DNA of 64,000 nt from a virus. The notes below the pieces were generated by a model. The model worked only from the letters and a program-made list of their open reading frames with translations. It had not been told where the DNA came from and did no database searches. How positions within the stretch are numbered: position 1 is the first letter of the stretch; the number at the start of each line of letters is the position of its first letter. Shown here in pieces: positions 1 through 59,803 of this stretch. The translations under genes and the position numbers were made by a program. The stretch lies in IMG/VR virus record IMGVR_UViG_3300025070_000022, positions 1 through 64,000 of that record, one strand, 5' to 3'.

Positions 1-157
1 CAACGATAGGACGAGAGGAAGAATCGTAAATCATCTTAGTCTTCACTGCGAACTTCTTTTCAATCATTTTAATCAGTTCGTCTAAACTTCCCGTCTTTCC
101 AACTATTTCCTCTATTTCATCTAGAGTCATTTCTTTTAGTATGTTTTCCCAAGTCAT
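1..157 (-). CDS. Partial W-K-D-I-L-tag protein, cut by the left edge
   Basis: Open reading frame starting at ATG 157 and running off the window (52 codons visible). It opens with MTWENILKEM, the same N-terminal peptide as the genes upstream, followed by an acidic helix-like stretch (LDEIEEIVGKTGSLDELIKM). The start overlaps the stop of the preceding 40-aa gene (ATGA), so it is probably translationally coupled. No fold or function recognised. Its value is as one more member of the tagged set. Confidence 0.75.
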   Translation of the reverse strand, partial: MTWENILKEMTLDEIEEIVGKTGSLDELIKMIEKKFAVKTKMIYDSSSRPIV

Positions 158-276
158 TTCTTCACTTCCTTAATCTTATTTCCAGTGACAAACTCTTTCT
201 TTGTCTCTTTCTCCGTTTTATCAATCTTCTTTGATTGTTCATCAAACCAAGCATCTAATGTATTACACCGTGTCAT
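154..276 (-). CDS. 40-aa hypothetical protein
   Basis: Small lysine-rich reading frame (begins MTRCNTLDAWFDEQ) wedged between two genes, with ATGA stop-start overlaps at both ends. This overlap pattern is the main evidence that it is real. It lacks the N-terminal W-K-D-I-L peptide of its neighbours. Function unknown. Confidence 0.55.
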   Translation of the reverse strand: MTRCNTLDAWFDEQSKKIDKTEKETKKEFVTGNKIKEVKK

Positions 277-1247
277 AGCAACACTTCCTTCCAACTTTTA
301 ATAACCGGACTAACCTTTACACTCATGTTCGACTTCATGTAATCTTTAATCAATTTACGAGTCTTAGCCGGAGTCAACTCGATTGTGAATTCAGTAATGG
401 TCCCTCCTAAGTCGGGAACTTTCATGTATCTAGATAGCATCTTTTGTGCCTTACCTGTAGGTGGAACCTTGAATGATTTACCGGACATTAACCTCATAAC
501 TCTACCTGTACTTACTCCTTCTTCCGTTCTTGCAGTAGAAATAGCACGACCCAATCTCTTTCTAAAATCGGGAATGGTTTGGAGAGTAGCGGCGGGTTTG
601 GAAGTTGTAATCGTAGCAATGTAGTTTTGGTCGTCAATGTCTTCAATTGCTTTATTCAAAACATCAACCAATCCAACAGGAACTAAATTTCCGCCATAAA
701 GGGCTTGATAAATTGGAGGAGTAGCGGTGTTTTCTTTATCGCTAACCCACCCATCTTTTTGTCTATCGGCAGTACCATGCTTCTTAGCGTAGAAAGTAGA
801 AAGGTAGTGTCCGTAGACCTTTTCCATCTCTACACCTCTAGCATAAGCCCCTGTCTGTCGGTTATACTTCTTAGGAATTGAGAATACGATATTTTGAGGA
901 TTCAAACTAGCATCGTCTTTCAACCCTTCAAGGTCATTGACAATTGCTTCTAGGGTTTCAGCATCCTCTTCAAAGAAAATTCCGTTAGCCCTGTCAACTA
1001 ACATCTTCCTAATTCTTCTAAGCATGGTATGTGCGCCGGAATTTCCATCATTAGGAGAACCCCTTCTAGGACTGGTGGCATGGTTTTCAACTGCAAGCAA
1101 TAAAGAGCCTTTCTTCATGCCGGAATTTGCACCTCTGCATTTTTTCTCCCAAGCCTCAAAATCTTTCTTGAATTTGATAACTCCACCAACTGTTTCAATA
1201 ACAGCGTCACCGATGCTGGCAGTATTCTTATTCACATCTTTAGGCAT
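273..1247 (-). CDS. Hypothetical protein with C-terminal SWKEVLL
   Basis: 324 aa, basic, mixed alpha/beta composition, no recognised domain. It does not begin with the tag shared by its neighbours, but its last residues are KSWKEVLL, a close match to W-K-D-I-L placed at the opposite end. Its start overlaps the stop of the upstream gene by one base. Because it is the largest protein of the cluster it may be a structural or enzymatic component, but nothing in the sequence names the activity. Confidence 0.8.
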   Translation of the reverse strand: MPKDVNKNTASIGDAVIETVGGVIKFKKDFEAWEKKCRGANSGMKKGSLLLAVENHATSPRRGSPNDGNSGAHTMLRRIRKMLVDRANGIFFEEDAETLEAIVNDLEGLKDDASLNPQNIVFSIPKKYNRQTGAYARGVEMEKVYGHYLSTFYAKKHGTADRQKDGWVSDKENTATPPIYQALYGGNLVPVGLVDVLNKAIEDIDDQNYIATITTSKPAATLQTIPDFRKRLGRAISTARTEEGVSTGRVMRLMSGKSFKVPPTGKAQKMLSRYMKVPDLGGTITEFTIELTPAKTRKLIKDYMKSNMSVKVSPVIKSWKEVLL

Positions 1248-1690
1248 TACTCATCCTTCCTTTTCTTTCTAGTTCGGTATGCGGGTTTGAATAATTTAGC
1301 ATGTGCTGGAGCAGTAGTAGTCACGGCCCCTGCCATTCTCTCAAGGTTTTCACTATTAACATCTCCCTTAGAATTCTGTTCCTTCTTTCGGCCTCTTTGT
1401 GGCTTAGGAGGTAGCCTTCCTTTCTTTGGCTTCTTTCTACGCTTGGGAGGACTAACCTTGGTGTCTTTAAAATTAGGACTGTCTCTTCTTCCAGCAACAA
1501 ATTCACTCATGGCCCATGTTTCTTCTCGGTTGCCGGATTCCCCATGTTTTCGTTCCCATTCTCTTTGTCTGTTTTCTTCTTCTTTACGCCTTTCTTCCCT
1601 TCTTAAGTAAGCATTATTCCTTTGAATTTTTGCTCTCTTAGCATCCATTTCTTTAGGATTATATTCTTTTAGTATATCTTTCCAACCCAT
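1247..1690 (-). CDS. Very basic W-K-D-I-L-tag protein
   Basis: 147 aa starting MGWKDILKEY. After the tag comes a charged, probably helical segment rich in R, E and K (residues about 15-50), then a disordered Lys/Arg/Pro-rich region (about 80-105) and a basic C-terminus. The composition suggests nucleic-acid binding or an internal virion protein; that is inference. It overlaps the next gene by one base. Confidence 0.75.
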   Translation of the reverse strand: MGWKDILKEYNPKEMDAKRAKIQRNNAYLRREERRKEEENRQREWERKHGESGNREETWAMSEFVAGRRDSPNFKDTKVSPPKRRKKPKKGRLPPKPQRGRKKEQNSKGDVNSENLERMAGAVTTTAPAHAKLFKPAYRTRKKRKDE

Positions 1691-1691
1691 C

Positions 1692-2150
1692 TTAAATCAC
1701 CGGATACCGATACATGGGTAATTTACTAAGTTCAACATACATGTCTTTATTCATTATATCCTGTACTTGAGAATAAGAAGTCACCTTATCTCCTACCCTA
1801 GCCGCCATTCTTTCTACCTTCTCCCTAGACTTTTCATCTAGTGGATTCAATAATGTAATTCTAGGCTTGCCTCTAGTATGCTTATTCCTCTCTTGTAATA
1901 ATTTTCCAAAAATTCCCTCTCCTGTATGGTCGGGTCTAATGTAGCCATTGCCTACGAAAAAGAATGTTCCCATGTCCTTATAGGAAGTAAAGCCCAAAAC
2001 TTCGCCCTCATCATTTACTTCGCTAACTAGGTTTAGTGGACTTACCTTAGTTGGGTAGCCCTTATCACTAGCAGTTCTAAAATTTGGCATATTCTCCGAA
2101 ACTGTAGATTCGTTTAGAACCTTGACTTCCTTGAGAATATCTTGCCACAT
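1692..2150 (-). CDS. GNAT-like acetyltransferase with W-K-D-I-L tag
   Basis: 152 aa. The tag MWQDILKEV is followed by a segment resembling the GNAT N-acetyltransferase core: a beta strand containing GEVLGFTSY, then GYIRPDHTGEGIFGKLL, which matches the acetyl-CoA-binding motif A pattern (Q/R-x-x-G-x-G/A) with TGEGIFG as the pyrophosphate loop. The family transfers acetyl groups from acetyl-CoA to amines; the substrate here cannot be told. If the tag is a targeting signal, this would be an enzyme delivered to a particular site such as the virion. Confidence 0.6.
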   Translation of the reverse strand: MWQDILKEVKVLNESTVSENMPNFRTASDKGYPTKVSPLNLVSEVNDEGEVLGFTSYKDMGTFFFVGNGYIRPDHTGEGIFGKLLQERNKHTRGKPRITLLNPLDEKSREKVERMAARVGDKVTSYSQVQDIMNKDMYVELSKLPMYRYPVI

Positions 2151-2151
2151 T

Positions 2152-2394
2152 TCAATCCTTCCTCAGTGAATAAAAATAAGTAGGGGATAAGTAAGGTTGC
2201 TTCTTACTTATCCAATCAGCACTGTTTAAAAATCTCCTCAAATTAGCATCTTTGAATCTACCAATACCTCTTTGTGATAATGAAGACTTTATGCCACCAA
2301 AAGAAATTTCATCTACATTTTCTAAAATGTCAGCGACTGCCTTTACTATGGTAGTACGAAGTCCATCGTGAGTTAGAGTATCCTTCCAAGACAT
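2152..2394 (-). CDS. Small W-K-D-I-L-tag protein, possible winged helix
   Basis: 80 aa starting MSWKDTLTHD. The rest has a helix-helix-strand pattern (TTIVKAVADILENV, then ISFGGIKSSL, then ANLRRFLNSADWI) that could be a winged helix-turn-helix, but this is a weak impression. Separated from the next gene by one base. Confidence 0.65.
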   Translation of the reverse strand: MSWKDTLTHDGLRTTIVKAVADILENVDEISFGGIKSSLSQRGIGRFKDANLRRFLNSADWISKKQPYLSPTYFYSLRKD

Positions 2395-2396
2395 GA

Positions 2397-3164
2397 CTAC
2401 AACCCCAAATTTCTTTCAATGATTGGGACCAATTCTTTGAGGGAGGGGCTAGATGCAATAACCGCATCTTTTTTGCTGATATGAAATTGTCCCCTATGTG
2501 ATTTAACTTTCAAAAAATCTTTACCATAATCTAACTTCAATTCCGGATTGCCCTTTGCTCGGCTAGATATATGACTAGAGTAAATCTCCCCTCCTAGTTT
2601 TTCTTGGAAGTGTTCTAAGAATTGTCTAGGCCCGAAGAATTTCAAAATAGATTTTCTTAACATAGGAAATTTATCTCGGTTTCTTTTAGAAAGGCCAGTA
2701 TCAACATATTGTCTAGCCCTACTTAGAGGTTGTATTTCTCTATCAATTTCGTTAATGGCGGGAACATAATTTACCTTGTCCAAGTACTTATCAATTCTCA
2801 AAATAATAGAAGACATTTCATTTTCCATCTCTTCTGTCACTCCTTCATAGTTTTCCATCATCTCTTGAGCGGCTTCAGGATACTGCTCCTTAATTTGTTC
2901 AGCATCATCCTTTCGCTGTAGTCTCCACTGTGCTTCATCAACAAGAGATTCTAGAGCCTTAAGTTCTTTAATTGCTGCCTCTTTATTTTCTCTTGTAGCC
3001 TTTCTCTTAGCCACACCAGCCTCTCCGCCAGTTTCTTGACTTCTCTGTGTTGTTCTTTCTTTGGCAGTTCTAGTATCTATTGTTGGGCGTGACATTCGCC
3101 TTGGTGCATCCTTCTTATGAGGTGTCCAATTCTTATCTCTTTTGAGAATATTTTCCCAAGACAT
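2397..3164 (-). CDS. Coiled-coil W-K-D-I-L-tag protein
   Basis: 255 aa from ATG 3164 (MSWENILKRD); an ATG two codons earlier is possible, but the chosen start matches the tag position of the neighbours. A basic low-complexity linker (residues about 10-50) precedes a long acidic helical stretch (about 55-125) likely to form a coiled coil, then a compact C-terminal region of about 110 residues. No recognised family. Confidence 0.75.
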   Translation of the reverse strand: MSWENILKRDKNWTPHKKDAPRRMSRPTIDTRTAKERTTQRSQETGGEAGVAKRKATRENKEAAIKELKALESLVDEAQWRLQRKDDAEQIKEQYPEAAQEMMENYEGVTEEMENEMSSIILRIDKYLDKVNYVPAINEIDREIQPLSRARQYVDTGLSKRNRDKFPMLRKSILKFFGPRQFLEHFQEKLGGEIYSSHISSRAKGNPELKLDYGKDFLKVKSHRGQFHISKKDAVIASSPSLKELVPIIERNLGL

Positions 3165-3166
3165 AA

Positions 3167-3385
3167 TCAAACCTCTGCATAAAACGATTCGCTGTTTGGC
3201 ATATTAACCTGCCTAGAGATAACTTTCAAGGAGCCGCCCATCATTTGTAGGGCGTTCTTGAATAAGGAAATTTCCCTATCCACAATTTCCTTTTCTTCTT
3301 GTGATAGTTTGGAAGTATTGACAGAATTCATAGTCTTCTCCATTTCTCTTAGGAGGGACAGTACTCTCTTTACTTCTGCTTCCAT
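3167..3385 (-). CDS. 72-aa hypothetical helical protein
   Basis: Starts at ATG 3385 behind GGTGATT. An all-helical small protein (MEAEVKRVLSLLREMEK...) without the tag. It sits inside the tagged cluster and its stop overlaps the ATGATT in front of the next gene. Function unknown. Confidence 0.6.
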   Translation of the reverse strand: MEAEVKRVLSLLREMEKTMNSVNTSKLSQEEKEIVDREISLFKNALQMMGGSLKVISRQVNMPNSESFYAEV

Positions 3386-3399
3386 AGTAATCACCGTTT

Positions 3400-3753
3400 T
3401 TAATATCCATGCCTTTTATGAGCCTTTTCCATATCGGAGATATATTTTTCTAAAATCTCGATAATTTCTATTTTTCCCATGTTACTTTTAATCTGTGGAG
3501 GACTCATCCCAACCTCCCCTAGCCAAAAATCAACAGACATAAGTTCATTATGAGTTAAACTATTAGGCCTGAAGTTGTCATTTCCCCCTCTTACCTTTAT
3601 ATTATGAATTATTCGTTTTAATCGAGGAATCACCTCTTTTTGTCTTCTAACCATCTTGTCAGTATCATCTTGTAACATTTCTTTTGACGCATATTTTCGC
3701 CCCAATCTTCGGGCTTCTTCCATCTCTATTTTGAGTATGTTTTTCCAAGTCAT
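3400..3753 (-). CDS. W-K-D-I-L-tag protein, 117 aa
   Basis: Start placed at ATG 3753 (MTWKNILKIE), one base after the upstream stop; the frame is open for ten further codons upstream but those overlap the previous gene. Basic helical protein with QKEVIPRLKRIIHNI and a C-terminal helix. No recognised domain. Confidence 0.7.
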   Translation of the reverse strand: MTWKNILKIEMEEARRLGRKYASKEMLQDDTDKMVRRQKEVIPRLKRIIHNIKVRGGNDNFRPNSLTHNELMSVDFWLGEVGMSPPQIKSNMGKIEIIEILEKYISDMEKAHKRHGY

Positions 3754-3754
3754 G

Positions 3755-4012
3755 TTAATCACCCAATTCTCTAATGCAAGCATCTAAGGATTCTACAAAT
3801 TTTTCAGTAAAGGCATCGGTTTCCATATTTTTATTTACAATTTGAGCCACTTGATTCAATAATTCATAAGCCTTCATGGTATCTTCGTCTTTACCTTTAG
3901 ACCCCTTTCTCTTTTCAGCCTCTCTCTTCATCCGAGGACTGACATTCATAAAAGCAGTCATGTCTTCGGGGTCTTCGTCAAGTATCTTTCTTAGTTCATC
4001 TTTCCAACTCAT
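3755..4012 (-). CDS. W-K-D-I-L-tag protein, 85 aa
   Basis: Start at ATG 4012 (MSWKDELRKI), immediately after the upstream stop (TGATATG). A charged linker (KRKGSKGKDEDT) is followed by a C-terminal amphipathic helix. No function recognised. Confidence 0.7.
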   Translation of the reverse strand: MSWKDELRKILDEDPEDMTAFMNVSPRMKREAEKRKGSKGKDEDTMKAYELLNQVAQIVNKNMETDAFTEKFVESLDACIRELGD

Positions 4013-4013
4013 A

Positions 4014-4337
4014 TCAATCAGTCCTTTTAGTATGATTAAACTTGAAACGGCCACCCATAACTTCCAACTGTTGTGCCATGCCCCCGCCGCTTTCTTTCAT
4101 AAAATCAGTAATTTTTTCCTCTTTATCTTCCAGTTCATTAAGTAGTCGGTCTAGCGTTTTAACAGTCAAAACTTCTGCTAGAATCAAAGATTCTAAGTAA
4201 TTGTCCAATACGCTTTTAATTAGTTTTATATCGTGTGCGCTAGACTCTACCAAGTCTTGATATAATTTCGCTCCCTCTTTGCTACTTTGTCCATATACCG
4301 TTGGGGTAGTCTTTTTTAATTCATCTTTCCAAGTCAT
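4014..4337 (-). CDS. W-K-D-I-L-tag protein, 107 aa
   Basis: Starts MTWKDELKKT. The body is predicted mostly helical (IKLIKSVLDNYLESLILAEV and a following acidic helix), ending in a basic tail. Stop and next start are separated by one base. Function unknown. Confidence 0.7.
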   Translation of the reverse strand: MTWKDELKKTTPTVYGQSSKEGAKLYQDLVESSAHDIKLIKSVLDNYLESLILAEVLTVKTLDRLLNELEDKEEKITDFMKESGGGMAQQLEVMGGRFKFNHTKRTD

Positions 4338-4347
4338 ATCAATCCAC

Positions 4348-4740
4348 TCACAAATTTCCTTTAAATCTAATTATAGCAGTATTAGGCTCAAAACTTATTT
4401 TCGCTTCTCGTTGATAGATTCTGTTGAATGCCCTAACAAGCCCCTTATCATCATCACCCATTGCACCTTGTATAGCATAAAATATGTCGGGGTTTTCATT
4501 TCTAGTAAAGCGATAAGGGCTATTCCCTAGTTTCTTCATTGCTGGAACTATTCTGTCTCGAACCATCGAAGTAAATTGGTCTTCGGAAAGACCAGTTTGT
4601 TGAGTGTTTTCTCGTTGAGAAAAATTACCGGACATTAGTTCTTGATGCTGTCTCTCTGACTCGTTCTTGCTTCTTTCTTGTTCTTCATAGTAGCCTTCCG
4701 GCATCGGAGGCTCGTTCTTTAGTATATCTTTCCAAGTCAT
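4348..4740 (-). CDS. W-K-D-I-L-tag protein, 130 aa
   Basis: Starts MTWKDILKNE at ATG 4740 (an ATG at 4746 is in frame). A Glu/Gln/Asn-rich linker (about 10-50) leads into a small domain with FTSMVRDRIVPAMKKLG and alternating strands at the C-terminus. No recognised family. Confidence 0.7.
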   Translation of the reverse strand: MTWKDILKNEPPMPEGYYEEQERSKNESERQHQELMSGNFSQRENTQQTGLSEDQFTSMVRDRIVPAMKKLGNSPYRFTRNENPDIFYAIQGAMGDDDKGLVRAFNRIYQREAKISFEPNTAIIRFKGNL

Positions 4741-4742
4741 AA

Positions 4743-5456
4743 TCATCTTCCGCCGATTCTTTCAGCAATCTTTTCTACAGGAAAACTAGACTGCGTTTGA
4801 GCATCCCGAACATAAGAGTCGGGATTATTGAGGTACTCACTAGCATTGAAATCCCGATGCTTGTAAGTTCCAGCCAATGCTTCTTTCAATAAATCTCTCA
4901 TGTGCATTGCTACCTTTCGGTATTCTGTCGTCACATTCAATGGCTCATTAAGTTGAAACGAAGCCAACTTCCTTGCATTGTCAAAATTAATAAAACCAAA
5001 GTTAGGTCTTTCACTACCCCGCTTCATCATAGCGGCAATTAGTTTCTCATCGTAATCTTGCGGTACAGTTGCTTGTTCGTTTTTCAATTCCTGTTTCTGT
5101 ACGGCGTTTTTATTCGTAACAAGTATTGCATTATTGCCTTGCTTTTCTGCCTTATATTCTAATTTATTTAAATGAGTAACGGCTAGTTCTAAAAATTCAT
5201 CATTGTCCATTCCGAGTGACCCCGTATAAAACATTAGACCGTCCTTGCCTTTTGGATTGTTGGCCAACTTAATACCGAATTGCCCTACTCTTTGAAATTC
5301 TGGGTCATTTCTAAATTCATTAATTATCTTATTTACCTGCTGACCTACTTCGGATATGTTTCTGTTTTTAATCTTGAGTTTGCCCTTATCCATTTGCCTT
5401 CTAATCTTGCTCTCACTACGGAACGGCCCTTTCACTATAATGTCTTCCCATGTCAT
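4743..5456 (-). CDS. W-K-D-I-L-tag protein, first gene of the left operon
   Basis: 237 aa from ATG 5456 (MTWEDIIVKG), chosen because GGAGAG lies just upstream and because it places the tag at the N-terminus; the frame is open 20 codons further. Contains a central strand-rich region (QFGIKLANN) and a C-terminal helical region. It is the promoter-proximal gene of the cluster that runs to the left edge. Confidence 0.75.
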   Translation of the reverse strand: MTWEDIIVKGPFRSESKIRRQMDKGKLKIKNRNISEVGQQVNKIINEFRNDPEFQRVGQFGIKLANNPKGKDGLMFYTGSLGMDNDEFLELAVTHLNKLEYKAEKQGNNAILVTNKNAVQKQELKNEQATVPQDYDEKLIAAMMKRGSERPNFGFINFDNARKLASFQLNEPLNVTTEYRKVAMHMRDLLKEALAGTYKHRDFNASEYLNNPDSYVRDAQTQSSFPVEKIAERIGGR

Positions 5457-32335: not shown

Positions 32336-34081
32336 ATGATAATCTCACATAATAATTCAAATATTTACATATCGTGGAGAGAAAATGGTACTAAGCACGA
32401 TTCTACTATTCCGTTTCGCCCATACTTTTTTGTGGAAGAGACTAGTAAGGAACCACCTACTTACCAGCCTAGTAAGTACATTACTAGGGAAATAGAATAC
32501 GAGAGAGGCGATTGGGTTAATCTTGAAGGTACTCGATTGAAGAAAGTCTATGCAGAAATGCCGGAAGACTTGAGGAATTTGAAGAGTTCCTTTTCTAGAA
32601 CTTACGAGGCTGATGTACCTTACCCCTACAGATATTGTGTAGACCGATTAGAAGAAATCAAAGAGTACGATATGCGTAAGTGGTATTGGGATATGGAATG
32701 GCAACAAGGTGGAGAACACCATGATAAGATTACTACTATTGTAATGTATGATAATTACGATAAGGAATACTATCAATGGGTTTGGTTTCCCGACCAAGAA
32801 CCCTATGATGGATTCAAAGCCTCCACTGATAAAGCACAACATTTATCGGTCTTTAATACAGAAGAAGAAATGATTGAATCTTTCTTGACTACAATGATAG
32901 AGAAAGACCCCGACATGTTAATTGCATGGTTTGGTAATTGGGCCGACCTTCCTAAGTTGTTTTCTAGATGTGCCTTCTACGATATTGACCCTAGCGTTAT
33001 TTCTCCTTTGGGAGTTGTTGATGGTATAAAGGTCAAAGACGGTAAGGTAAGATTCACTAAAGAAGAGAATGGCTATCACGCTACTGCTCAACCCATCCGA
33101 GGTAGGATTACACTAAACTTGGACATGGCTTTTGAAAGACAATGGAATGATGCACAAAAAGGCACACTACCTAGTCTCTCTCTAGATTATGTTTCTACTG
33201 CATTATTCGGTGAAGGTAAATCTAAGGAAACTAAATTTGAAGATGCTAACGAGTTTTATCGTAGAGGTTGGCTAGAAGACACTCAAGCCTACTTGAAGTA
33301 TGCTTTGATAGATGTAGAATTACTAGTAAAGATTGATGAAACTAACTTCTGTAGTGAAGCCATTCTTTCTTTACAGCGATTACTAATTGCTCCTTTCGAT
33401 GCTTGCTTCTTTGCTTCTAACATGGGTTCAATCTACTTTATGAGAAACGCTTGGTGGAAAGCCCCAACGGGAGAGAAGCCTAAGTTCAAAGTCTGCGATA
33501 AGTGCAATCATAAGAATCCAAACGAGAAGACACTAAGAGAGTGTAAGAAGTGCGGAGCAAGCCTATCTTATTCGGGTGCTATGATTTACAATCCTACTGA
33601 CGAAGGTACTAACGGGTTGCATTACAATGTAGCCGCTTTTGACTTTGCTGGTCTTTATCCTAGTATGATTATTGCTAGGAATATCTCGTTTGAAACTCTT
33701 ACAGAAGAGCCAACACTATTCAGTGCTGACTTGAATACTCCACAGAATCTACAGCCCGTAGCAGAAGACTACGAGAAAGACATGCGCTATTTCAAGACTG
33801 ACGAATTGGGACTATTGCCTCGCTCTCTTATCGACTTGAAAGAGTTGAGAGGCGAGTACAAGAAGTACATGAAAGAGGCTAGGAAGGCTGGAGATAAGGA
33901 GGCTGTTGTTAAGTGGAACAACAATCAAATGGCTGTAAAGCGTTTGATGGCTTCCTTCTATGGTATCCTTGCCTTCAAGGGATTCGGTTGGGCGAATGTA
34001 GACCTAGCCGCTAGCATTACTGCTAGTGCAAGAGAGGCTATTCGTAAGGCCGCATTTACAGCAAGGGAGATGGAAGGATGA
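32336..34081 (+). CDS. polB: Family B DNA polymerase, N-terminal part
   Basis: 581 aa. Exonuclease motifs: WYWDMEW (Exo I, D-x-E), AWFGNWADL (Exo II), YALIDVELL (Exo III). Then a zinc-binding insert CDKCNHK...CKKCG (about 383-405), palm motif A FDFAGLYPSM and motif B NQMAVKRLMASFYG. The frame stops at AREMEG, just before where motif C belongs. The remainder is encoded 1 kb downstream. Replicative polymerase with proofreading; the two chains must assemble. Confidence 0.93.
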   Translation: MIISHNNSNIYISWRENGTKHDSTIPFRPYFFVEETSKEPPTYQPSKYITREIEYERGDWVNLEGTRLKKVYAEMPEDLRNLKSSFSRTYEADVPYPYRYCVDRLEEIKEYDMRKWYWDMEWQQGGEHHDKITTIVMYDNYDKEYYQWVWFPDQEPYDGFKASTDKAQHLSVFNTEEEMIESFLTTMIEKDPDMLIAWFGNWADLPKLFSRCAFYDIDPSVISPLGVVDGIKVKDGKVRFTKEENGYHATAQPIRGRITLNLDMAFERQWNDAQKGTLPSLSLDYVSTALFGEGKSKETKFEDANEFYRRGWLEDTQAYLKYALIDVELLVKIDETNFCSEAILSLQRLLIAPFDACFFASNMGSIYFMRNAWWKAPTGEKPKFKVCDKCNHKNPNEKTLRECKKCGASLSYSGAMIYNPTDEGTNGLHYNVAAFDFAGLYPSMIIARNISFETLTEEPTLFSADLNTPQNLQPVAEDYEKDMRYFKTDELGLLPRSLIDLKELRGEYKKYMKEARKAGDKEAVVKWNNNQMAVKRLMASFYGILAFKGFGWANVDLAASITASAREAIRKAAFTAREMEG

Positions 34082-34317
34082 GTTCACAATTAAGTAAATT
34101 ACCACCACATGAAGGCTTAGGAGAAATTGTATTACTAGAAGCCGAAGAAGAAACAGGTGATATTAGTTTCTACAGACCGTGTTTATATCGTTGGAGTGCA
34201 GAAGAAATGTCTGCGTATGAAACTAAAAATGATAGAAGTAATTTTGGTTGGTGTGTTTATGGTGCTAATCCTGTTTATGGTGTGTTGGCATGGATAGTAA
34301 AGGAGGATGAGAAATGA
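34078..34317 (+). CDS. Hypothetical protein, 79 aa, between polymerase halves
   Basis: Begins MSSQLSKLPPHEGLGE; strand-rich, with FYRPCLYRW and FGWCVYG. Overlaps the polymerase N-part stop by four bases. First of seven small frames separating the polymerase pieces. Confidence 0.55.
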   Translation: MSSQLSKLPPHEGLGEIVLLEAEEETGDISFYRPCLYRWSAEEMSAYETKNDRSNFGWCVYGANPVYGVLAWIVKEDEK

Positions 34318-34424
34318 AGTGCATAAAACCAATGATACACAGACCGGAATTTGAAAGCAGTCGTCACTGTAAATTGTGTGAAGCAGAACGAATCATCAAG
34401 GAAATAACAGGTGAAGAAGAATGA
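34314..34424 (+). CDS. 36-aa zinc-knuckle peptide
   Basis: Begins MKCIKPMIHRPEF, has HCKLC, ends TGEEE; ATGA overlaps on both sides. Function unknown. Confidence 0.45.
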   Translation: MKCIKPMIHRPEFESSRHCKLCEAERIIKEITGEEE

Positions 34425-34621
34425 GTAAAAGAATACGAAGAACCGGCGTTGCTTGCACAGTATGTGGGGAAACCACTACTTCGGTTTATGCGAAAATTCA
34501 ATCAACAAAGAATTATAGAAGCATAGGAGGGGTTTGTTCTAATCTCCATTTTTTCCCAAAAAATCAAGATAACGAAGGATGGAAACACATTAACAGATTT
34601 ATTACAGGTGAAGAAGAATGA
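34421..34621 (+). CDS. Zinc-binding protein, 66 aa
   Basis: CTVCGE near residue 12 and a later lone Cys; basic N-terminus, ends TGEEE. Overlaps its neighbours by four bases. Confidence 0.5.
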   Translation: MSKRIRRTGVACTVCGETTTSVYAKIQSTKNYRSIGGVCSNLHFFPKNQDNEGWKHINRFITGEEE

Positions 34622-34677
34622 TTGAAATAGTAAAAGCCTTCGCCCTAGAAACATCAAAGGTGATAATAAATGAATGA
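34618..34677 (+). CDS. 19-aa peptide, doubtful
   Basis: MIEIVKAFALETSKVIINE fits exactly between two genes with overlapping start and stop codons; without that it would not be noticed. May only be a translational coupler. Confidence 0.25.
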   Translation: MIEIVKAFALETSKVIINE

Positions 34678-34807
34678 CAGATGTGTTAGATGCAAAAGCA
34701 ATGTGAGGATTACCCATCCTTCAAAGTGCTACTGCTTCTCATGCTATGTCAAATACTACAGAAGAACTGTAGTCAATAATAATAAAAGAGGAATAAAAAA
34801 TGTTTAA
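34670..34807 (+). CDS. 45-aa zinc-ribbon protein
   Basis: CVRC and CYCFSC pairs about 16 residues apart with a basic tail (KYYRRTVV). Likely a small nucleic-acid-binding ribbon. Confidence 0.5.
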   Translation: MNDRCVRCKSNVRITHPSKCYCFSCYVKYYRRTVVNNNKRGIKNV

Positions 34808-34955
34808 TTTAGATGAATTAATTGAAGTACAAAAAACAACAAACGGAACACTCAGCGAACTACTGGCTAATGTCAAGAGAAGTAATAAGATTTTGATGAT
34901 GGTCAACATTGTCAACATTGCTACTATCGTCACCTTATTGGTGGTGGTTCTGTGA
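34800..34955 (+). CDS. 51-aa single-pass membrane protein
   Basis: Behind GAGGAATAAAAA. A short soluble helix (MFNLDELIEVQKTTNG) precedes a hydrophobic C-terminal segment (ILMMVNIVNIATIVTLLVVV) long enough to span a membrane. Role unknown. Confidence 0.55.
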   Translation: MFNLDELIEVQKTTNGTLSELLANVKRSNKILMMVNIVNIATIVTLLVVVL

Positions 34956-35128
34956 ATTTACCTTACTGGTATTTAACAGAACTAACTCATAGTCCAGTTG
35001 GAGAATTACTATATTTTACGATAGTTTTGATTCCGTTTAGACTTGCTTTAAAATATTTATACAAGAGTTGGAAAAGTAATGATAGACAACCTAGTTTTTG
35101 GGATGATTACGATACGGAGGTTCGATAA
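34952..35128 (+). CDS. 58-aa membrane-associated protein
   Basis: Starts at GTG 34952, overlapping the upstream stop. The hydrophobic stretch ELLYFTIVLIPFRLALKYLY is a likely membrane segment; the tail is polar. Its end carries the GGAGG used by the polymerase C-part. Confidence 0.5.
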   Translation: MNLPYWYLTELTHSPVGELLYFTIVLIPFRLALKYLYKSWKSNDRQPSFWDDYDTEVR

Positions 35129-35129
35129 T

Positions 35130-36014
35130 ATGGAAGTAGTTTATGGACACACAGACTCAATCTATGTCAAGGTAGATTCTATAGAGTCGGCCTTTTCATC
35201 TCTCGAAAAAATAAATGAAGAAGTTAGAACTATCTTTCCTAATTTACTAGGCCTAGAAGAACACCCTGTTATTCTAGAATTTGAGAAATACTTTGAATCA
35301 TTAGGTGTAGGAATTACAAAAAACAGAAACGCTGGTTTAATTTCTTGGGAAGATGGAGTTTGGTTAGACGAGCCTAAATTTACTCTAACAGGATTTACTT
35401 CTAAGAGAATTTCCGAAACAACAACGATGAAAGAAGTTCAAACAGTGGCCCTCAATATGTGGGTTTCCGGTAAATCGGAACTAGAAATAGTCGATTACGC
35501 TAAGTCTGTTTATGCCAAAGTCCTTTATGGGGAAATCAATTACCGTGAAGTAGCAAAAAGAACTAGACTAAAGAAAGAGAGATTCCAAGTCAAATGTACC
35601 TGTAATAGAAAGTACGACATTAGAGAAATATCTTGGACTGATGGTGAGTTCTTTTGTGGAAAGTGTGCAAAACACCCTTCTAAGTTCCTAACAGCCAAGG
35701 GAAAGAAGCCGACTATAAGCGAAGGCATTGTAGGTGTATTGTATTCCATGCAAGAAAGAAACCTTACCTTTGAAGACTCCTATGTATTCTTAAGAATAAG
35801 ACCAGTTGGATTCTTTACTGACCCCTTAACCGGAGTTCGTAAAGAAGCCACTTATGTTTCCGGAAATACTTTTTCCGAGATAGAGGGTTTTGAACCCGAT
35901 TGGCCCCACTACGCCGAACAAGTAGTGAAAAAAGTACAACCCATTTTCGATGCTATGGGTTGGGATACTAAACAAATTAAAACTAAGCAACGAACTTTTG
36001 ATGAATGGTGGTAA
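35130..36014 (+). CDS. polB: Family B DNA polymerase, C-terminal part
   Basis: 294 aa from ATG 35130 behind ACGGAGGTTCGATAAT. It begins MEVVYGHTDS, so palm motif C (Y-G-D-T-D-S) is at its very start, with the first Asp replaced by His and the second kept. Thumb-domain features follow, with a zinc-binding site (CTCNRKY...CGKCAKH). It ends KQRTFDEWW, a PIP-box-like Q-x-x-h-x-x-a-a motif suited to binding the viral clamp. An upstream frame opening at 35079 lacks a ribosome-binding site. Confidence 0.9.
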   Translation: MEVVYGHTDSIYVKVDSIESAFSSLEKINEEVRTIFPNLLGLEEHPVILEFEKYFESLGVGITKNRNAGLISWEDGVWLDEPKFTLTGFTSKRISETTTMKEVQTVALNMWVSGKSELEIVDYAKSVYAKVLYGEINYREVAKRTRLKKERFQVKCTCNRKYDIREISWTDGEFFCGKCAKHPSKFLTAKGKKPTISEGIVGVLYSMQERNLTFEDSYVFLRIRPVGFFTDPLTGVRKEATYVSGNTFSEIEGFEPDWPHYAEQVVKKVQPIFDAMGWDTKQIKTKQRTFDEWW

Positions 36015-59296: not shown

Positions 59297-59803
59297 TCAA
59301 TCCCTTCCGTCAAATCTACTTTCTATTTTTTTATGAATGTTTTTAATTAAAGACTCAATGAATGAATTAGAGGTTTTTGAAAACACACTAATTGTACCGT
59401 TTTCTTTATTGTGAGAACCTGCATTGTATTCATAGACAGGATAAACGCCTTGGTCTTCTGCTTTTAATCTGTATTCTTCGCCAAAATTATCAGCAATTTC
59501 ATTTATTTCGTCTTCAAACCCTCTGTACCACAAATCATACCAATCTACATCTAATGTTATTTGTATTTCTTCAAATGGTTTTGATATAAAGTCGTCATTA
59601 TGACGGCCAACATTTGGGTTAAAACTCAATATGTAATTAGGAAAATAAATCATTCCATTGCTGAACTCAAAACCTTCAAGTCCTTCCTTTCTTTCTATTG
59701 TATCAACAAGTTCCCGATACAAACCATTCATAAATTCTACTTTAGTGTGATAAGGAATGTGGGTTTTACCACCACTGTTATTTTTTAATATTTTTTTCCA
59801 CAT
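59297..59803 (-). CDS. W-K-K-I-L-tag protein in the tail module, 168 aa
   Basis: Begins MWKKILKNN, a variant of the tag found in the left operon more than 50 kb away. The rest is alpha/beta (LSFNPNVGRH, IQITLDVDWYDLWYRG) and might be a head-tail completion protein. It shows that the tag is not confined to one operon. Confidence 0.65.
   Translation of the reverse strand: MWKKILKNNSGGKTHIPYHTKVEFMNGLYRELVDTIERKEGLEGFEFSNGMIYFPNYILSFNPNVGRHNDDFISKPFEEIQITLDVDWYDLWYRGFEDEINEIADNFGEEYRLKAEDQGVYPVYEYNAGSHNKENGTISVFSKTSNSFIESLIKNIHKKIESRFDGRD

Follow-up and report, generated by a model that had tools for sequence, protein, structure and literature searches.

Short peptides that send proteins into viral heads have been described in several phages. 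In T4, the capsid-targeting sequences (CTS) of IPI, IPII, IPIII, and Alt comprise about ten N-terminal residues on otherwise unrelated, fast-evolving head proteins; these ten residues are enough for head targeting, with positions 4 and 7 contributing most, and T4 injects the proteins (PMC9026906). In P1, the N-terminal 30 residues of DarB constitute a packaging signal that sends the protein, as well as a reporter, into the head (PMC9024508). The C-terminal helix-turn-helix of the P22 scaffold is essential for capsid assembly, and scaffold-fused cargo is packaged (PMC9962691), while in encapsulins a short cargo peptide docks inside an HK97-fold shell (PMC8346489, PMC8229669). Here, we describe a comparable peptide, M-[ST]-W-[KEQ]-[DNE]-[IV]-[LI]-K (the tag), found at the start of many late proteins encoded by IMG/VR record IMGVR_UViG_3300025070_000022 (89,940 bases), of which the first 64 kb form the window analyzed. 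By gene content, on which this label rests, and by its size of about 90 kb, the record fits a magrovirus-like, tailed virus of Poseidoniales archaea (compare PMC10160649). We consider it likely that the tag is a capsid-targeting (prohead-loading) signal that copies the tail of the viral scaffold and docks cargo in the prohead; the capsid is the best-supported destination because the viral protease-scaffold has the same motif as its conserved C-terminal tail. The original prediction had proposed that the peptide docks or targets otherwise unrelated proteins, which the present data support, and had named no system of this kind; the T4 and P1 signals above are precedents.

The tag resembles the T4 sequence in chemistry (Y-Q-E-F-I in T4, W-K-D-I-L here), and this virus, too, has a prohead protease and a scaffold. 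However, there is no sequence homology to the T4 signal (MKTYQEFIAEA), only a common chemical pattern, and here the peptide has about 8 to 22 carriers per near-complete genome, occurs also in C-terminal copies, and matches the scaffold tail, a copy not seen in T4 when the ends of gp22 and gp21 were compared. The Dar proteins of P1 are without a shared N-terminal consensus (PMC9024508), whereas hundreds of proteins share one here. Like that of P22, the magrovirus scaffold ends in conserved short helices, as predicted by a low-confidence model; unlike the P22 fusions, which are man-made and employ a long segment (238-303 or more), the present arrangement is apparently natural, involves about 8 residues, and mostly occupies the cargo N-terminus. 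Encapsulins differ in being cellular compartments with one or few cargos and without scaffold, tail, or genome, whereas this record codes for a portal as well as terminase-like and tail-module genes. No capsid-targeting sequence of an archaeal tailed virus was found in the literature searched, an absence that is provisional given the limited search.

A conserved peptide on unrelated late proteins

The ten N-terminal peptides first noticed in 1-5456 are all present on the minus strand, as is an eleventh, MWKKILK, at 59803. The ten genes had been described as consecutive; all of them do lie in the late run, but it is interrupted by open reading frames (ORFs) that are untagged at their start (154-294, 273-1247, and 3167-3394). 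Eleven is also under half of the genome's total, as the whole record carries about 25 tagged genes, every one minus-strand and late. Tags start in the window at 157, 1690, 2150, 2394, 3164, 3753, 4012, 4337, 4740, 5456, and 59803, and beyond it at 64509, 64932, 73714, 78242, 78640, 78851, 79240, 79725 (GTG start), 83219, 87745, 88074, 88966, 89396, and 89776, with a close variant, MSWEDILL, at 77915. The features of the window are as follows (lengths in amino acids, aa).

2-157, minus strand: MTWENILK protein, truncated by the end of the record to 52 aa in the window; second copy at 88721-88966, 81 aa
276-299, minus strand: C-terminal tag KSWKEVLL, the last 8 residues of a 324-aa ORF, from an alignment of 16 homologues
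273-1247, minus strand: the 324-aa cargo candidate with this C-terminal tag; 29-member family in relatives; no Pfam match
1247-1690, minus strand: MGWKDILK protein, 147 aa, very basic
1692-2150, minus strand: MWQDILK protein, 152 aa, GNAT fold by AlphaFold2 and PDB fold matches
2152-2394, minus strand: MSWKDTLT protein, 80 aa
2397-3164, minus strand: MSWENILK protein, 255 aa; 9-member family in relatives
3400-3753, minus strand: MTWKNILK protein, 117 aa
3755-4012, minus strand: MSWKDELR protein, 85 aa
4014-4337, minus strand: MTWKDELK protein, 107 aa
4348-4740, minus strand: MTWKDILK protein, 130 aa
4743-5456, minus strand: MTWEDIIV protein, 237 aa; heads the late run
59297-59803, minus strand: MWKKILK protein, 168 aa, amid tail genes; no Pfam match

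Several of these window starts are internal methionines inside longer open frames; across the tagged set, positions -12 to -7 are G-rich and Shine-Dalgarno-like, which supports the tagged starts as real. The record ends overlap at 98% (1-165 with 88810-88975, and 272-440 with 89772-89940). The molecule must therefore be circular or permuted, and the tags at 157 and 88966 belong to one gene. The late genes accordingly run from 5516 down to 1, over the join, and onward from 89940 downwards. The two overlapping ends (window 1-440 and record 88810-89940) are set apart by an indel: the end copy has two more complete tagged genes that are not in the start copy, so cargo genes vary among strains of one population.

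Near-complete genomes have hardly any tags off the late strand. When one uniform rule was applied to 13 of them, all 173 tagged starts were late-strand and 0 lay opposite, a split that excludes chance. Likewise, every one of the 690 strict matches in nine genomes and 80 related loci has the late-strand orientation; the loci had been retrieved with the C-terminal portion of the terminase-like protein as query. Of these matches, the 57 in minus orientation come from three genomes whose late operon is minus-strand. Nearly all of the 80 loci contain several late-strand tags. The profile of 395 non-redundant tags reads M, [STNK], W, [KEQF], [DNE], [IV], [LIV], K/R, and conservation ends past residue 8. 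Anchoring of the motif at residue 1, as initially supposed, is not strict, since the Met-to-Trp spacing differs among homologues (MSNWMDILK, MTEWKEILK, MMDEWKEILK), with the tryptophan 1 to about 8 residues in, and since the motif is sometimes C-terminal. An independent scan of 2.9 million viral contigs with an exact tag DNA pattern matched 31; 22 of 24 newly examined contigs code for the same protease-scaffold, and one of the other two is an 11-kb locus with eight tagged genes. The tag thus travels with this virus group. A host or bacterial origin was rejected: an exact DNA pattern encoding M-x-W-K-D-I-L-K had 22 isolated matches scattered over about 85,000 cellular genomes and no tagged-gene clusters, consistent with chance.

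The bodies behind the tag are unrelated, as the original prediction had it: 565 distinct tagged proteins fell into 251 BLAST families, 166 of them singletons. All that 98 representatives have in common is M1 and W3, both invariant, and K8, conserved in over 90%, and the mean column identity is 4%; lengths range from 44 to 811 aa (median 112), and the isoelectric point (pI) is above 9 in 41% and below 6 in 41%. Pfam returned one strong match for this set, a PAP2 phosphatase (E 5.7e-13), and ten weak ones. A common cargo function, such as anti-defence, could not be demonstrated with PADLOC (weak matches only), PHROGs (mostly families lacking a functional annotation), or Pfam (few matches). The GNAT-like enzyme reported among the tagged proteins is supported by modeling: the AlphaFold2 model of the protein at 1692-2150 has a predicted local distance difference test score (pLDDT) of 87, and the PDB structures that it matches in fold are GNAT acetyltransferases (best E 1.9e-4), while tag residues 1-4 score below 50, disordered and outside the fold. 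In one relative (L008), the GNAT protein is fused to a segment resembling the C-terminal part of the basic neighbor (1247-1690), which points to modular cargo. Families of six or more members usually retain the tag in some form, with losses, in a listing that includes one false loose-pattern match, a GroES-like family.

The tag also occurs at the other end of proteins. W-x-x-[IV]-[LIV]-[KR] lies within the last 20 residues of 35 proteins, compared to 1.7 expected from shuffles, and none of the 35 has an N-terminal tag. In the 324-aa family (273-1247), K317 and W319 are invariant and S318 nearly so among 16 homologues, and the terminal KSW is the best-conserved stretch. Separately, a 217-aa protein at record positions 88071-88724 ends in PEIWLDIKKKMQERLQ; this end is conserved in most relatives and resembles the tag core, a likeness that may be coincidence.

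Some neighboring genes in relatives begin with another N-terminal tag, M[TS]W[DN][YFW]Y[DN][IE]. This second tag, which this genome lacks, occurs 87 times, 86 of them at the start of a protein, and its carriers span 19 body families. Its sites (L055:16738-17007, L044:9534-9971, L059:16534-16731, and others) are mostly between the portal and protease genes. In the ortholog family of 73361-73714, which starts with MWERILK here, 48 of 57 members have the second tag in place of the main one. This peptide (M[TS]WDYY[ND]) may be the address of another site or an exchangeable version of the tag.

The same core at the tail of the protease-scaffold

The prohead protease has a Peptidase_S78 domain (Pfam, E 2.3e-10) and continues into a long fused helix that spans residues 283-365 in a 391-aa AlphaFold2 model (mean pLDDT 53, low confidence), and as modeled this architecture appears typical of a protease-scaffold. 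After the long helix, the model places short helices at 372-377 and 380-387, again with low confidence; the second is WSDIHKAV. The protein ends in ...EEIADMSWSDIHKAVGGNI, with the core M-[SD]-W-S-D-I-H-K. At this C-terminus, W, [DE] at +2, and [ILV] at +3 are each found in 52/52 sequences and M at -2 in 47/52, and W380 is among the few invariant residues of the C-terminal half. Beside the protease-scaffold is encoded a 75-aa protein (73141-73368) with a coiled-coil-like heptad stretch and the end ...KMSWNDIEKFVNGRN. This end is kept in its relatives of about 80 aa, and the core M-[ST/D]-W-x-[DE]-[IV] stands at the extreme C-terminus here as well.

Beyond residue 45, the pattern M[STDNE]Wx[DEN][IV] has 25 matches in 13 proteomes (about 382,000 aa): 13 are the C-terminus of the protease-scaffold (13/13 genomes), 11 are that of the ~80-aa protein, and 1 is elsewhere. 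As the pattern was picked after both motifs had been seen, these counts are a description and not a blind test. With a profile built from the tags only, the protease-scaffold tail ranks 1-8 in nine genomes, each with about 225-300 internal tryptophans. In this genome, the tails of the protease-scaffold and the ~80-aa protein rank 1 and 2 of 252 when M at -2 is rewarded, 1 and 3 when it is not, and 3 and 8 when the +4 column is included.

How such a match might work can be outlined by analogy with P22. The scaffold tail would dock on the inside of the prohead as it grows, with the major capsid protein as the most likely partner. About twenty late proteins would have gained a copy of this docking element, which is mostly N-terminal and in some cases C-terminal. 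Cargo would then most likely dock at the scaffold tail's own site, probably on the capsid protein, co-assemble with the scaffold, and remain in the head once the scaffold is removed. We infer that the tagged proteins would be packaged, reach the next host cell together with the DNA, and act there.

Alternative destinations and origins

Several observations weigh against loading into the head by a copied scaffold tail. Tag and tail are not identical, with L/I at +4 in the tag and H in the scaffold; in the four most divergent genomes, the scaffold tail ranks only 14-35 of about 250-330 internal tryptophans, and its K at +5 is lost while the tags are unchanged. The T4 signal is cut by gp21 at a conserved Glu, whereas no conserved cut site was found after the tag, there being no strongly conserved position past residue 8; cleavage at a more loosely defined site may nevertheless occur. 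One tagged gene (59297-59803) sits amid tail genes, and no tag was found in the 39 late genes read of HVTV-1, a related halovirus with a homologous protease. The tag could instead be a capsid-targeting signal that binds the scaffold core, a coiled coil, its likeness to the tail being convergence or a shared self-association motif. The internal proteins of T4 co-purify with gp22 and their propeptides have core affinity (PMC9026906), and in the divergent viruses the tag varies less than the tail. Binding to the core nevertheless leaves unexplained why the same core motif stands at the conserved extreme C-terminus of both the scaffold and a second protein (11/13 genomes), and we regard it as rather unlikely. 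Docking on a hub in the infected cell other than the capsid, such as the viral chaperonin, a site of assembly, or some part of the tail or injection apparatus, would suit the virus-encoded Cpn60 and the tagged gene among the tail genes; it is improbable, in that the tags are all in the late operon and the motif recurs in the prohead protease-scaffold and its neighbor, not in tail or early proteins.

Two further explanations concern the origin of the conserved start rather than its destination. The peptide might be the by-product of a DNA- or RNA-level element, i.e., a translation enhancer or a gene-shuffling recombination hotspot. Codons 2-5 are indeed biased to A/T-rich forms (AGT for 85% of Ser, AAA for 95% of Lys), and tagged genes come and go between strains. 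Such a codon bias is common beside start codons, however, and codon use at I6, L7, and K8 is near background, with all six leucine codons occurring, so it is the peptide that is conserved and not the DNA. Together with the shifting tryptophan and the same peptide at protein C-termini, this makes a nucleic-acid element very improbable. Finally, the tagged proteins might be a single diverged paralogous family, as some families are many-membered and a few share basic C-terminal segments. This has practically no probability left and was ruled out by the 251 families, from 44 to 811 aa and from acidic to basic, with one GNAT fold and one PAP2 domain, and by the fact that only M1, W3, and K8 are common to the 98 representatives. 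Capsid targeting through a copy of the scaffold tail is the explanation that we favor.

Genome context and significance

The window encodes a TFIIB-type zinc ribbon, a Cpn60 chaperonin, an RFC-like clamp loader, and a family B DNA polymerase, all by Pfam; a PCNA-like ORF is our own reading, Pfam giving no match. The polymerase seems to be split within 32336-36014, as the ORF at 32336-34081 covers only the first part of the Pfam profile and the YGHTDS motif is in a separate ORF (35079-36014). The late genes of the record include the S78 prohead protease, the portal, and an SU10-like capsid protein, the latter two just under the Pfam cut-off. The capsid protein is encoded at record positions 67612-68955 and the protease-scaffold at 68966-70171. 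Between the portal and protease genes, an 828-aa ORF (70179-72665) has an ATP-dependent DNA ligase domain (E 1.1e-27) and is possibly a virion-carried ligase. Adjoining the terminase-like gene, a 538-aa ORF (79822-81438) has a stretch that, by eye only, resembles a LAGLIDADG homing endonuclease.

Magroviruses are reported to rank with the most abundant viruses of the marine plankton (PMC10160649). Their hosts are uncultured. Whether they have evolved a portable docking peptide, usable at either end and copied from the scaffold tail, that ships a fast-changing set of about 20 proteins in the head is in our judgment evenly balanced. If loading into the head is confirmed, it would provide a capsid-targeting sequence for a tailed virus of archaea and a natural version of the P22 scaffold-fusion trick, and the tag would mark some 250 protein families, nearly all with no known function, as candidate delivered proteins. 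The head-loading role would be testable without culture, and both tags together would allow the virion cargo of uncultured viruses to be deduced from their sequences alone.

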